Shown one piece after another: positions 13,249 through 52,222 of a DNA stretch of 64,000 nt. The notes beneath the pieces were generated by a model. That model was not told the origin of the DNA, did no database searches, and saw nothing but the letters and a program-made list of their open reading frames with translations. Source of the DNA: Pelagibacterium luteolum. Its GTDB lineage: Bacteria > Pseudomonadota > Alphaproteobacteria > Rhizobiales > Devosiaceae. The DNA is taken from assembly GCF_900100665.1 (NCBI RefSeq), contig NZ_FNCS01000001.1, forward strand, positions 479,119-543,118, written 5' to 3'. A program made the position numbers and the translations under genes. Within the stretch, counting starts at the first letter, position 1, and each line of letters begins with the position of its first letter.

Positions 13249-13421
13249 TCGCGTTCGCTCATTTTTCGTGTCGGTATGATGGAGACGAATATGGGTTGCA
13301 AACCGGTCAAATGCAAAACGCACCCGCGGGCGCAACGCGCTGACGGGTGGTGACCGGTTGTCTCGTTGAGATCAACCCAGTGACTCGTTAATCCATCAAT
13401 TCTGACAGAAGGTCGAGGCGG

Positions 13422-42387: not shown

Positions 42388-43278
42388 TCAGTGCGACATC
42401 AACTTGCTACACACGGCGTCAAGTTGCTCGAGCGTCTTGTAGCGGATTTCAAGTTTCCCACCCCGATCCTTATGGTCCAAGGTGACCGACAGGCCCAGAG
42501 CATCTGACAACTGGCGTTCGAGCGCCAGAGTGTCAGCGTCCTTGCTCGGCGCAGAGCCTCGCTCGCGCACCGTGCCGGGTTCGCGCCGCGAATCGCTATC
42601 CTGCTGATGCAGCGCTTCAGCTTCTCGGACCGATAGCCCCGCATCAACAATCCGCCGTGCCAGCGCCAGCGGATCATCGGACGTGATCAGCGTGCGCGCG
42701 TGACCGGCCGTCAATTCGCCGGCTTCGAGCATGGTTTGCACTTCGCGCGGCAGGCGCAACAAGCGCAGCGTATTGGCGACATGGGATCGCGATTTGCCGA
42801 TCACTTGCGCAAGGTCTTGCTGCGTATAGGAAAACTGCTCGATTAGCTGGCCATAGCCTTGCGCCTCTTCAAGCGGATTGAGGTCAGCGCGCTGGACGTT
42901 CTCAATGATGGCAAGCTCGAGTGCTTCTTTGTCATCGACCTCTCGGATGATCACCGGAACTTCGTGCAGTCCCGCTCGCTGCGCAGCCCGCCAGCGCCGT
43001 TCGCCGGCGATGATTTCGTAGACATCCGGACCTTGATCGCTGGGACGGACAAGGAGCGGCTGCATGACACCTTTTTCGCGGATCGAATTGGTCAGATCCT
43101 CGAGCAATTCGGCATCGAAATCCTTCCGCGGGTTGGCGCGGCTGGCGATGACGAATTCGACGGGAAGGCGCCGGACGCCAGAGCCCGTATCGGCCTGTCG
43201 CGGAGCGGTCTCTATGGGGGCCATGTCGCCGATGAGGGCGGCGAGGCCGCGGCCAAGTCGTGTGGGCTTGTCTTGCAT
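42388..43278 (-). CDS. parB: chromosome-partitioning protein ParB
   Basis: CTPase clamp that loads at parS and spreads along DNA. 296 aa from ATG 43278 (MQDKPTRLGRGLAALIGD). The N-terminal CTP-binding domain has P-R-K-D-F, the E-I-I-A-G-E-R-R-W-R-A-A box and N-P-L-E-E-A. The parS-binding HTH includes Y-T-Q-Q-D-L-A-Q-V-I-G-K-S-R-S-H-V-A-N. A C-terminal dimerisation domain ends it. GGAGA is 6 bases before this ATG; upstream ATG 43290 overlaps the parA stop. Confidence 0.97.
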   Translation of the reverse strand: MQDKPTRLGRGLAALIGDMAPIETAPRQADTGSGVRRLPVEFVIASRANPRKDFDAELLEDLTNSIREKGVMQPLLVRPSDQGPDVYEIIAGERRWRAAQRAGLHEVPVIIREVDDKEALELAIIENVQRADLNPLEEAQGYGQLIEQFSYTQQDLAQVIGKSRSHVANTLRLLRLPREVQTMLEAGELTAGHARTLITSDDPLALARRIVDAGLSVREAEALHQQDSDSRREPGTVRERGSAPSKDADTLALERQLSDALGLSVTLDHKDRGGKLEIRYKTLEQLDAVCSKLMSH

Positions 43279-43289
43279 CGTCTTCTCCA

Positions 43290-44090
43290 TCACGCCGCCC
43301 GCAGCTGGCGTTCGCGCCGTATAACTTCAGTGGCCAGACGCAGATAAGCCTGGCTTCCAGCGCATTTCAAATCGTAAAGCAGGGCGGGCTTGCCATAAGA
43401 TGGCGCCTCTGAAAGCCTAACATTACGCGGTATCACCGTATCGTAAACTAGATTGCCCATATGCTCGCGCACGTCGTTGAGAACCTGTTCAGATAGATTG
43501 TTCCGCTTATCAAACATCGTCATCACAACGCCCTGAATCGACAGGCGTGGATTGAGCGTGGTACGAATTTGTTCAATGGTCTGAAGGAGTTGGCTTAAAC
43601 CTTCAAGCGCGAAGAATTCGCACTGCAGAGGCACCAATACCGCATCAGCGGCGGTCAGCGCATTGATCGTCAGGAGATTGAGCGAGGGCGGGCAGTCGAT
43701 CAGGACATAGGTGATCGGTTTGCCGTCTATGGTGACCTCGGATACATTTTCCAGCGCTGTCTTTAAACGAAACGCCCGATCTCGCTCGGCCGCGATCATA
43801 AGCTCGACGCCTAAAAGATCCATTGTCGACGGGACAACTGCGACGTTCGGAACCGACGTCAGCACAGCCGATTCTTTGACCGTCGCTTCATTGAGCAACA
43901 GATCGTAGGACGAACGCTCGCGATGCTGGCGGCCGATGCCGAGCCCTGTCGAGGCGTTGCCTTGGGGATCGAGGTCAATGATCAAAACGCGCTCACCGAT
44001 AGCGGCAAGCGCCGTGGCAAGGTTGATCGCGGTTGTCGTTTTGCCGACACCGCCCTTCTGATTGGCGAGAGTGAGTATCCGAGGGTGCAT
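43290..44090 (-). CDS. parA: chromosome-partitioning ATPase ParA (Soj)
   Basis: 266-aa deviant-Walker ATPase that moves ParB-bound origins. N-terminal A-N-Q-K-G-G-V-G-K-T-T-T carries both the deviant and signature lysines. D-L-D-P-Q-G-N-A-S-T-G-L-G and V-L-I-D-C-P-P-S-L are the other nucleotide motifs. GGAGG lies about 3-7 bases before the ATG at 44090. It follows rsmG by 38 bases and precedes parB by 11. Confidence 0.97.
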   Translation of the reverse strand: MHPRILTLANQKGGVGKTTTAINLATALAAIGERVLIIDLDPQGNASTGLGIGRQHRERSSYDLLLNEATVKESAVLTSVPNVAVVPSTMDLLGVELMIAAERDRAFRLKTALENVSEVTIDGKPITYVLIDCPPSLNLLTINALTAADAVLVPLQCEFFALEGLSQLLQTIEQIRTTLNPRLSIQGVVMTMFDKRNNLSEQVLNDVREHMGNLVYDTVIPRNVRLSEAPSYGKPALLYDLKCAGSQAYLRLATEVIRRERQLRAA

Positions 44091-50101: not shown

Positions 50102-51148
50102 TTAATCCCTCGTTCCTTTGACCGTGGCGATCAGGTCGGCGACGTGATCAATCGGGGTTTGCGGGACGATGCCGTGGCCCAGATTGAAGATATGCGGGCG
50201 ATCGGCAAAGGCCGAGACAATCTCACGCGCTCTCGTGCGCATCTGCTCGCCGCCGGCAACGAGGCGCAGGGGATCGAGATTGCCCTGTAGCGGCAGGGTT
50301 TTGGCGAAAGTGCTCGACGCGAAATCGAGCGGGGTCGCGTAATCGAGGCCCAGCGCTGAAACGCCGGTCTTTTCTACGTATTCGGCCAGCATGCCGGCAG
50401 CGCCACGGGGAAAACCGGTGATCGGTGCGCCGGGGATAAGTTCGCGTAAACGGGCGACGAGGCGGCGATTGGGCTCGATTACATTGGTGCGAAATGCGGT
50501 CTCGTCGAGATTGAGAGCCCAGGATTCGAAAATCTGCACCATATCGGCGCCCGACTTGAATTGTGCGGCGAGATAAAGCGCCGAGGCTTCGACAAGCACG
50601 TCCATCAGGGCGGAAAAAGCTTCAGGGTGCTCAAGCGCGAAAATGCGGGCCGCAGCCTGATCGGGCGATCCGCGTCCGCCGATCATATAGGTCGCAACGG
50701 TCCAGGGGGCGCCACAGAACCCGATCAGGGTCTTGTCCGGGGCCAGGGCAGGCTTGATGCGACTAAGCGTCTCCAAAACGGGTGCCAGACGCTCCACGAC
50801 CCTTTCGGGATCGAGACGGGCGACATCGCTGGCCTTTATGGGCTCAAGCATTGGCCCCTCGCCTTTTTCAAAGCGGACTGACTGGCCAAGGGCGTCGGGG
50901 ATGACGAGGATATCGGAAAACAGGATCGCTGCATCGAGATCGAAGCGTTTGAGGGGCTGCAGCGTTACCTCGGCAGCAAGCTTTGGATTGTAGCAGAGAT
51001 CGAGAAACGATCCGGCCTCTTCGCGGACCTTCAGATATTCGGGCAGATAGCGACCGGCCTGGCGCATGATCCAGATAGGGGGTGTTGCCTGGCGATGCCC
51101 GAGAACGGTGTCGAGCAGCGGCTTGCCTTGTGGAGAGGTCTGGGTCAT
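50102..51148 (-). CDS. hemE: uroporphyrinogen decarboxylase
   Basis: Decarboxylates uroporphyrinogen III to coproporphyrinogen III. 348 aa, normal length. The substrate motif P-I-W-I-M-R-Q-A-G-R-Y-L-P-E-Y is near the N-terminus. The catalytic F-S-D-I-L-V-I-P block, G-F-C-G-A-P-W-T and the terminal F-N-L-G-H-G-I are intact. It starts at the edge of the oriC gap and reads away from it. Confidence 0.97.
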   Translation of the reverse strand: MTQTSPQGKPLLDTVLGHRQATPPIWIMRQAGRYLPEYLKVREEAGSFLDLCYNPKLAAEVTLQPLKRFDLDAAILFSDILVIPDALGQSVRFEKGEGPMLEPIKASDVARLDPERVVERLAPVLETLSRIKPALAPDKTLIGFCGAPWTVATYMIGGRGSPDQAAARIFALEHPEAFSALMDVLVEASALYLAAQFKSGADMVQIFESWALNLDETAFRTNVIEPNRRLVARLRELIPGAPITGFPRGAAGMLAEYVEKTGVSALGLDYATPLDFASSTFAKTLPLQGNLDPLRLVAGGEQMRTRAREIVSAFADRPHIFNLGHGIVPQTPIDHVADLIATVKGTRD

Positions 51149-51613
51149 GGGGCCTTTGGAAATTGTCTTGGGCGGTCTTCGGGCGGGACTTAATTAGAAG
51201 TCTTAAAAGACTCTTCTTTATTATTATGGCTGTGTTTTGCACCAATTCTAAAGCGCCCACAACCGATGGGTCGCAAAGAGGCTTGCGGCGGTTTCGCACA
51301 GTGAGGTGGAGTCCAAAACCCTTGGGCGCTTCGGGGTGATCTGGCCCTAAAGCGCCGGGCGTTAACGGTTTGTTAAGAGGTGTGGCTGTGCAAAACCTTA
51401 ACGAAAGGTAAACGGCGATCCGGGCGCCCGACACGCGGTTTTACCCGCTGTTTTGCACATGGCTCCACGCTCGCCCACAGGTAACGAACTGTTAACGCAA
51501 ATCGAGACGATGGGGATAAACCTCGCCCTTGGTCGAGAATGGGGCGTTTGGGCTTTCCCTGTGCGCAGCCTTGTGAAAAACCAGCGTACCAACCAACCGT
51601 CAAACGCCCGGCC
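51149..51613. other. oriC: chromosomal replication origin (oriC) between hemE and maf
   Basis: This 465-base gap has no gene. An AT-rich patch (51189-51229) lies next to hemE. DnaA-box matches to TTWTNCACA are exact at 51387-51395 (-), 51451-51459 (+) and 51572-51580 (-), and near-exact at 51235-51243, 51292-51300 and 51511-51519. CtrA-type TAA-repeat sites and two GANTC sites (51209-51213, 51309-51313) are present. The hemE flank matches the Caulobacter origin, and genes diverge from the gap. The parS cluster is about 5 kb away. No replication data are available to me. Confidence 0.85.
51362..51376 (+). promoter_or_regulatory. CtrA-binding-site match in oriC
   Basis: TTAACGGTTTGTTAA is an exact TTAA-N7-TTAA match. 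Two further near-matches lie at 51398-51412 (second half TAAA) and 51481-51495 (first half GTAA), both with seven-base spacers. CtrA represses origin firing in Caulobacter by binding such sites. Confidence 0.65.
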
Positions 51614-52222
51614 ATGCTGATCTTAGCTTCCAAAAGCCCGATCCGGAAAACCCTGCTCGATAACGCGGGTTTACACTTTTTGGTTGCAAGCGCGCCGATC
51701 GACGAACGGGAAATCGAAGATCGTCTGTTGACGCAGGGCGAGAATCGCCAAGGGCTCGCCGTCGCTTTGGCCAAGTCCAAGGCGCTGGCAGTGAGCAAGG
51801 CGAACCCAGGCGCTGTGGTGATCGGGGCCGACCAAACATTTGATCAGGACGGCGAGGGTCGGCATAAACCTGCAACGATCGCGGAAGCGGCGGGTAATTT
51901 GATGGCGATGGCAGGCACCAGCCACAGCCTCCATTCCGGCGTCGCGCTGGCGCGGGACGGCGAAATCGTCTGGAGCGCTGTCGATACCGCGACCCTGACG
52001 TTTAAGGATTTTTCGCGCGCCGAGCTCGATATCGTCTTAAGGCTCGAGGGAGAGGCCATCCTTGGTTCGGTCGGCGGCTATCGCCTTGAAGGCCCATCGG
52101 TGCGGCTCTTTTCGCGCGTGCAAGGGGACTATTTCACCATATTAGGGTTGCCGCTTCTGGCCCTGCTCGATGCGCTGGCGGTCCATGCGCCCGAAACCCT
52201 GTCGCAAGGGGGAGAGCGGTGA
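51614..52222 (+). CDS. maf: Maf/Ham1-like nucleotide pyrophosphatase
   Basis: 202 aa. Maf proteins hydrolyse non-canonical or regular NTPs. The opening L-I-L-A-S-K-S-P-I-R-K-T-L-L resembles the Maf S-x-S-P-R-R start; G-A-D-Q-T-F and D-E-R-E-I-E are further family blocks. ATG 51614 follows the end of oriC; an upstream frame to 51539 runs through DnaA boxes and is rejected. It overlaps aroE by 4 bases and begins the maf-aroE-coaE-dnaQ run. Confidence 0.88.
   Translation: MLILASKSPIRKTLLDNAGLHFLVASAPIDEREIEDRLLTQGENRQGLAVALAKSKALAVSKANPGAVVIGADQTFDQDGEGRHKPATIAEAAGNLMAMAGTSHSLHSGVALARDGEIVWSAVDTATLTFKDFSRAELDIVLRLEGEAILGSVGGYRLEGPSVRLFSRVQGDYFTILGLPLLALLDALAVHAPETLSQGGER

Follow-up and report, generated by a model that had tools for sequence, protein, structure and literature searches.

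Does the chromosome of Pelagibacterium luteolum start its replication in the gene-free interval between hemE and maf, and could the start be held back there by CtrA, as in Caulobacter? An earlier note on this DNA, a stretch of 64,000 nucleotides that we call the window, had placed a replication origin in this interval. The 465 bp concerned (window positions 51149 to 51613) are bordered on the left by hemE (50102 to 51148, minus strand; TIGR01464, 381.8 bits with a cut-off of 303), whose start codon closes the gene at 51148, and on the right by maf (51614 to 52222, plus strand), for which the top models are Maf-like proteins under their curated cut-offs and whose start at 51614 is conserved in the genus. 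There is also an in-frame ATG upstream, at 51539, for whose use as a start codon the alignment shows no conservation. The extent claimed for the gap is thus confirmed by the hemE start and the conserved maf start, and the genes diverge from it as the note had said, with parB to hemE on the minus strand and maf to dnaQ on the plus strand. The parB gene for chromosome partition (42388 to 43293, minus strand; NCBIfam ParB/RepB/Spo0J domain model TIGR00180, 196 bits with a cut-off of 58) is 7.9 kb away from the gap, and the neighboring parA (43290 to 44090, minus strand) encodes a ParA-type ATPase, judged by NCBIfam matches under the equivalog cut-offs and by its position beside parB. The names of parB, hemJ and hemE are based on NCBIfam, while rsmG, mnmG, mnmE, rho, aroE, coaE and dnaQ were named by eye. 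A small ffh-type sRNA (Rfam RF01793, 50.5 bits) was also found at 13313 to 13364 of the window.

We compared the gap with those of its relatives at three levels. With the HemE of UBA3584, an uncultured relative, and with that of Pelagibacterium montanilacus, the HemE encoded in the window shares 76% identity, and with those of named Devosia 66-72%; across the family, 127 of 136 genomes have a hemE match. The genus alignment takes in 11 gaps from the 13 genomes of the genus, our own included (without G130, and without G120, whose gap is identical to G119's), and the family set has 42 Devosiaceae gaps, all distinct after leaving out the repeats L135, L049 and L050. Beyond the family we used 64 other named loci (65 minus L123, which is too short), mostly from Hyphomicrobiales with a few labelled Alphaproteobacteria only, and, for the class as a whole, a sample of 40 from the 119 further genomes in which hemE was matched. 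Our statements about orders follow the NCBI names, by which Devosiaceae belong to Hyphomicrobiales; by the genome tool's own taxonomy just 2 of 143 class-wide genomes fall in the same order, which may be narrower there. In 42 of the 45 Devosiaceae loci read, maf directly follows the gap (412-478 bp), and in the other three no maf was found. The hemE-maf distance is 1.2-1.9 kb in 49 of the 65 other named loci, leaving space for one gene, which, from known origins, we take to be probably COG1806.

The density of DnaA boxes singles out this gap from the rest of the genome. Searching for TTWTNCACA, exactly or with one mismatch, we recovered the three exact and three near matches that had been claimed. 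The exact boxes are at 51387 to 51395 (minus strand, TTTTGCACA), 51451 to 51459 (plus strand) and 51572 to 51580 (minus strand), the last one adjoining maf with a mean identity of 96% over the 42 gaps. The boxes with one mismatch are TTTTGCACC at 51235 to 51243 (plus strand), overlapping a block, CTGTGTTTTGCA, without any variation among the 11 gaps of the genus, the DnaA-like TTTCGCACA at 51292 to 51300 (plus strand), which is not conserved in the genus, and the weak DnaA-type box TTATCCCCA at 51511 to 51519 (minus strand), a TCCCCA-type word. TCCCCA is also the type of sequence of the weak W-boxes in Caulobacter. The whole genome of 4.30 Mb has 73 exact sites, so that 0.0079 are expected per 465 bp where three are seen (P for at least three is 8e-8 per place), and 0.00075 windows of 465 bp with at least three are expected genome-wide. 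Among all the 73 sites, three exact boxes fall inside 194 bp only in this gap. It is also the top 500-bp window for DnaA boxes in contig C14, which holds the window (score 12, the next seven scoring 4; scan with one mismatch over 795 of 825 kb, the first 30 kb left out), and the same is true for the gap of the sister genome G129 in the 432 kb around hemE (score 9, next 4). Strict boxes are few in the relatives, with 0-2 exact ones per gap in the ten sister gaps. The shorter words are enriched in the 11 genus gaps on both strands together, with 23 TCCCCA, 16 TCCACA and 13 TGCACA vs 3.4, 2.4 and 3.1 in the shuffles, respectively, and the reversed control words have no such enrichment (20 mononucleotide shuffles).

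Some DnaA boxes were observed in other arrangements elsewhere. A pair of opposed exact boxes (TTTTCCACA on the minus strand and TTATCCACA on the plus strand), 260 bp apart, occurs in two Devosia genomes at G038:2226471-2226739 and G049:1731995-1732263, that of G038 being near the polarity terminus of its chromosome, and tandem exact boxes 12 bp apart are at C11:47477-47497 of our own genome.

The AT-rich patch and the GANTC sites of the earlier note are both there. The 40 bp from 51188 to 51227, a probable unwinding element, are 80% AT, a level reached by just 0.003% of the 40-mers of C14, and are CTT/ATT-rich in the 11 aligned gaps; the gap as a whole has 45% AT vs about 40% for the window. 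One GANTC site (CcrM-type) is inside the stretch at 51209 to 51213 and the other is at 51309 to 51313, two being seen vs 0.54 expected. A close GANTC pair in the AT-rich stretch was found in 8 of the 11 genus gaps (this species not among them), 7 of the 31 other Devosiaceae gaps and 28 of the 64 other named loci, and in 0, 1 and 0 of their shuffles (one each), respectively. In the Devosiaceae outside the genus GANTC is not enriched beside hemE (1.81 vs 2.14 per 150 bp). We also observed doublets or triplets of GANTC, for instance GATTCTTAGAGTCTGT, in 28 of the 64 other named gaps (L067, L072, L077, L079, L085, L090 and others), their distance to the start of hemE being 24-143 bp.

Across the genus alignment four elements vary little or not at all: a CCACAA block, the maf-side DnaA box, the CTGTGTTTTGCA that adjoins the CTT-rich AT stretch, and the two halves of a TTAA-N7-TTAA pair at 51362 to 51376. 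The CTGTGTTTTGCA block was considered as an order-wide element and rejected, as the 17-mer around it in the 64 other loci resembles that in shuffles. A consensus search for an IHF site, which is degenerate, gave no WATCANNNNTTR in the gap at up to one mismatch.

The TTAA-N7-TTAA pair is a CtrA-type site, and here the earlier reading of the gap was incomplete: its origin is supported, and the CtrA-type sites were overlooked. Site C1 (51362 to 51376) is exact, and C2 (51398 to 51412) and C3 (51481 to 51495) each have one mismatch in this genome, with the minus-strand box TTTTGCACA lying between C1 and C2. The P value for at least three such sites, one exact and two with one mismatch, is 5e-6, and among the 300-bp windows of C14 the gap ranks second in its density of CtrA-type sites, behind the one at C14:674.7 kb. 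C1 is exact in all 11 genus gaps, 9 of which have a second exact site (C2) and 4 a third (C3). Over the 42 Devosiaceae gaps, the half-sites of C1 are 96% and 99% conserved and belong to the top 2% of the 4-column windows by conservation, whereas the spacer of C1 is ordinary (57%, the gap mean being 53%); C2 and the left half of C3 have no conservation in this family alignment. An exact TTAA-N7-TTAA is found in 41 of the 42 gaps (11/11 in the genus, 30/31 in the other Devosiaceae), and the sole gap without one, L145 of genome G038, has three sites with one mismatch. The spacer length is highly specific: the 42 gaps have 64 exact sites with spacer 7 (24 in the genus and 40 in the other Devosiaceae), and only 0-3 TTAA pairs overall, or 0-2 per set, for each spacer of 2-6 and 8-13. 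Outside Devosiaceae an exact site was found in 9 of the 64 other named loci, all four Cohaesibacter included, and in 1 of the 40 class-wide genomes, which have no enrichment of spacer 7. The exact site lies in the middle of most Devosiaceae gaps, 170-220 bp from hemE, and in 10 of the 42 gaps an exact DnaA box follows it within 80 bp, at a distance of either 25 bp (2 gaps, in the genus) or 50 bp (8 gaps, outside it).

The CtrA orthologue of the genome is at C42:463028 (NF045991, 427 bits with a cut-off of 350), and it also has GcrA, DnaA and a CcrM-type methylase bearing a RAMA domain, with two near-CtrA sites at most 90 bp upstream of the ccrM-type ORF. Exact TTAA-N7-TTAA occurs 43 times in the whole genome, and the reversed-pattern control 21 times; in C14 there are 11 pairs with spacer 7 and 0-3 for each of the other spacers from 3 to 13.

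Several of these places outside the gap are observations in their own right. The densest CtrA-type window of C14 has two exact sites 17 bp apart (C14:675007-675038), 76-93 bp ahead of a gene whose start is at 675116. At C14:704516-704580 an exact site is about 50 bp before a ParA-like gene, which we take by eye to be MipZ-like. Eight of the 43 places are located in C29 at 29.7-53.9 kb and are alike (TTAAG...CTTAA palindromes), perhaps another repeat.

The strand polarity of the chromosome gives a less simple picture. The GC skew was expected by the earlier note to turn at the gap, and this check failed: the cumulative minimum of C14 is at C14:695,615, 165 kb from the gap on the maf side, and near the gap there is only a shallow local minimum, near 43 kb of the window (about 522 kb of C14). 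A minimum elsewhere is the result that the note had named as refuting the origin. We do not accept it as a refutation, since the third-position skew tracks the gene strand (negative for plus-strand genes in 39 of 40 bins of 20 kb, and from -0.15 to +0.31 for minus-strand genes) and no clean V is seen in the complete sister genomes G129 and G120 (20 pieces sampled each). For the same reasons the GC skew of C14 was rejected as a decisive origin finder. A contrast in how 6-mers are oriented, computed for ten break points along C14, did not single out one of them: it is highest at 500 kb (4.08), followed by 3.65 at 695.6 kb, which has shorter flanks, and 3.50 at 530.5 kb.

A cleaner signal than the GC skew comes from the motif GGGNAGGG, presumably the KOPS of E. 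coli. In 20 sampled pieces of 20 kb per genome, G129 has 49 plus and 5 minus copies at 390 to 1775 kb and 4 plus and 40 minus copies at 1950 to 3725 kb, and G120 has 37 plus and 4 minus copies at 195 to 1970 kb and 5 plus and 28 minus copies at 2145 to 3725 kb. In Devosia G038 the complement becomes dense from 2.235 Mb, after 2.130 Mb, among the first 100 places listed. If equal arms are assumed, the point opposite the polarity terminus falls between 3.72 Mb and about the record end in G129, at 0.005-0.18 Mb in G120 and at 0.147-0.252 Mb in G038; the gap is at 3.854 of 3.888 Mb, 0.114 Mb and 0.218 Mb, respectively, and hence within this span in all three complete genomes.

The local turning of GGGNAGGG is at the gap in one genome and displaced in four. 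In Devosia G049 (stretch read: 40 kb to the side of hemE, 100 kb to that of maf), the turn falls in the interval from -3.2 to +5.8 kb relative to hemE: the seven copies from -11.6 to -3.2 kb are all minus (the eight further left being four plus and four minus), and the maf side has 38 plus and 11 minus copies, with 11 of the first 12 being plus. In our own genome (G000) the maf side of the gap has 2 plus and 34 minus copies from 530.5 to 690.1 kb of C14, and then 15 plus and 5 minus. The maf side has 6 plus and 29 minus copies up to +175 kb in G120, and 6 plus and 23 minus copies from +6 to +146 kb in G129, the lowest GC skew in the stretch read of the latter being at +306 kb. In G038 the copies between 150 and 218 kb are 16 to 0 of the hemE-side sign, so that the switch is about 70 kb from the gap. 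The polarity is therefore offset toward maf, by at least 70 kb, in four of the five genomes (G000, G120, G129 and G038), and not in G049.

Inversion of a whole block is not the cause of this offset in our reading, because the gene order near the gap matches that of G049 save for small inversions, and the two stretches fetched from G038 have the same inversions as G049. An inversion of 571-695 kb of C14 was rejected, as the block is collinear with G129; G000 and G120 do differ by the inversion of a smaller block (651-714 kb), and the offset persists in the 120 kb adjoining the gap. The offset may have a dull answer, namely weak selection on such motifs near the origin, or a bold one, a second initiation zone.

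A rival explanation puts the working origin at the polarity turn, 70-175 kb away or further on the side of maf, and makes the gap a secondary origin or a former one. This would agree with the GC-skew minimum of C14 and with the GGGNAGGG switch beyond 690.1 kb, which has its counterparts on the same side in G120, G129 and G038. However, we looked for a DnaA-box cluster near the displaced switch and found none: the best 500-bp windows score 4 in C14 and in G129 (the gaps scoring 12 and 9), and G038 has only single exact boxes there, at 141 and 173 kb. The C14 minimum falls inside a gene resembling folC, with a convergent gene resembling trxA next to it (both named by eye); homologues of these also hold the minimum of G129 in the stretch read. 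Furthermore, the polarity of G049 turns at the gap despite a largely matching gene order nearby, and the point opposite the terminus excludes the displaced switch in G129 and G120, spanning both switch and gap only in G038. We hence regard an origin elsewhere as very unlikely. A related idea is that Pelagibacterium and some Devosia keep an intact origin of CtrA sites and DnaA boxes while initiation has moved, or extended, to a second zone on the side of maf (70-175 kb away or more), CtrA closing the old origin for part of the cycle; this too we find quite improbable.

Could the gap be merely a regulatory intergenic region, with DnaA as a transcription factor? Single or paired DnaA boxes do occur elsewhere as well, but the three within 194 bp are unmatched among the 73 exact ones, and both neighborhood and layout fit the known alphaproteobacterial origins, which leaves this explanation with hardly any probability. 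A more serious rival accepts the origin and takes the TTAA-N7-TTAA sites for promoter elements of hemE or maf, with CtrA as a transcription factor, or for the sites of another regulator, having no role in initiation. CtrA is chiefly a transcription factor (PMC4433202), and some of the non-Devosiaceae sites are near hemE (positions 68-69 in Bartonella L067 and L069, position 4 in Afifella L071). All 11 exact sites of C14 are intergenic, but this alone is uninformative because 12 of the 13 TTAA pairs with other spacers in C14 are intergenic too. Against a pure promoter role are the mid-gap position of the exact site in most Devosiaceae gaps and its fixed distance where an exact DnaA box closely follows; moreover, both roles may combine in Caulobacter (PMC4468827), so the two readings are not fully separate. 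We consider the promoter explanation unlikely, although it deserves more weight than the others.

Overall, the hemE/maf gap is very probably the chromosomal oriC; the DnaA-box cluster, the AT-rich stretch, the hemE/parAB neighborhood, the conservation in 11 sister species and the polarity of the relatives support what the earlier note had claimed. We further think it likely that this is an origin of the Caulobacter kind, in which CtrA-type sites hold back DnaA. DnaA would load onto its boxes and open the AT-rich stretch beside hemE. In mid-gap, phosphorylated CtrA would occupy two to three TTAA-N7-TTAA sites that flank a DnaA box and would thereby exclude DnaA; as in Caulobacter, this would restrain initiation in one growth state or cell type. 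Methylation by CcrM of GANTC in the AT-rich stretch may serve as a second timer. The CtrA binding, the exclusion of DnaA and the timing of initiation in this scheme are predictions from Caulobacter.

The gap is ordinary as an origin, and what is new within Hyphomicrobiales is an origin bearing CtrA sites. Two cases have been studied in this order, and both are without CtrA at the origin: that of Sinorhizobium meliloti has no CtrA motif and is not bound by CtrA (PMC4433202), and the CtrA of Brucella abortus does not bind to the origin (PMC2877005, citing earlier work). Both genera share with Devosiaceae the order, by NCBI taxonomy, and the hemE gap; Brucella pituitosa (L122) and Mesorhizobium (L102) also have a GANTC-rich AT stretch beside hemE, S. 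medicae (L099) having a single GAGTC. Unlike the Devosiaceae gaps, those of S. medicae L099 and Brucella pituitosa L122 have no exact TTAA-N7-TTAA. We read the gap as an origin that CtrA would control much as in Caulobacter, inside an order believed to be without such control. In the open-licence literature, judged by titles and the starts of abstracts, we found no description of CtrA sites at a Devosiaceae origin; the literature consulted also includes PMC10225481 and PMC8116508. CtrA sites at the origin throughout the family would mean that direct CtrA control has been kept or regained inside Hyphomicrobiales, and Devosiaceae would be a non-pathogenic group where the loss or gain of this brake can be placed on the tree and tested through one 15-bp site.

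CtrA sites at the hemE-linked origins of Rickettsia, Wolbachia and relatives were predicted in silico for several species and partly tested in R. prowazekii (PMC1914354); these have the hemE border with CtrA sites in common with our gap, but differ in order, in their right border (COG1806 or COG1253) and in their intracellular hosts. According to PMC4468827, CtrA sites have not been seen in origins other than that of Caulobacter and possibly that of R. prowazekii. In Hyphomonas neptunium, a member of another group, ChIP puts CtrA next to the origin with one site reported (PMC7200025), which parallels the CtrA-type sites here. A parallel within Hyphomicrobiales is Cohaesibacter, another family with another gap layout, whose four hemE gaps (L068, L070, L075 and L084) all have an exact site. 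We observed in them two CtrA-type sites 21 bp apart, each exact or with one mismatch and both exact only in L075, and found no published description of these gaps in the literature searched.

For the hemE-linked origins in general, not every element is required and the GC skew is no good universal predictor, according to PMC1914354. Our gap has the hemE border and, with 465 bp, a size near the usual 400 bp or so, the top DnaA-box density and an AT-rich stretch, and lacks the COG1806 border and a GC-skew shift; having maf instead of COG1806 does not exclude it from this class because other borders occur, e.g. COG1253 in Wolbachia (same source). Two marks of a CtrA-controlled origin are present, TTAA-N7-TTAA near DnaA boxes in the origin and a CtrA orthologue in the genome; for a third, the IHF site that overlaps a CtrA site in Caulobacter, the search with a degenerate consensus gave no match at up to one mismatch. 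The Cori of Caulobacter crescentus, in the gap between hemE and COG1806, has five CtrA sites, five DnaA sites and one IHF site (PMC1914354), and weakening the CtrA affinity of all five CtrA sites had only a mild effect on the cycle in constant culture (PMC4468827). Unlike Cori, our gap has maf as its right border, one exact and two one-mismatch CtrA-type sites instead of five, strong consensus DnaA boxes in this species, and no IHF site by the consensus used with one mismatch allowed. The two are alike in the hemE border, as the earlier note had pointed out, and also in TTAA-N7-TTAA sites close to DnaA boxes, the AT-rich stretch and the weak boxes of the TCCCCA type.
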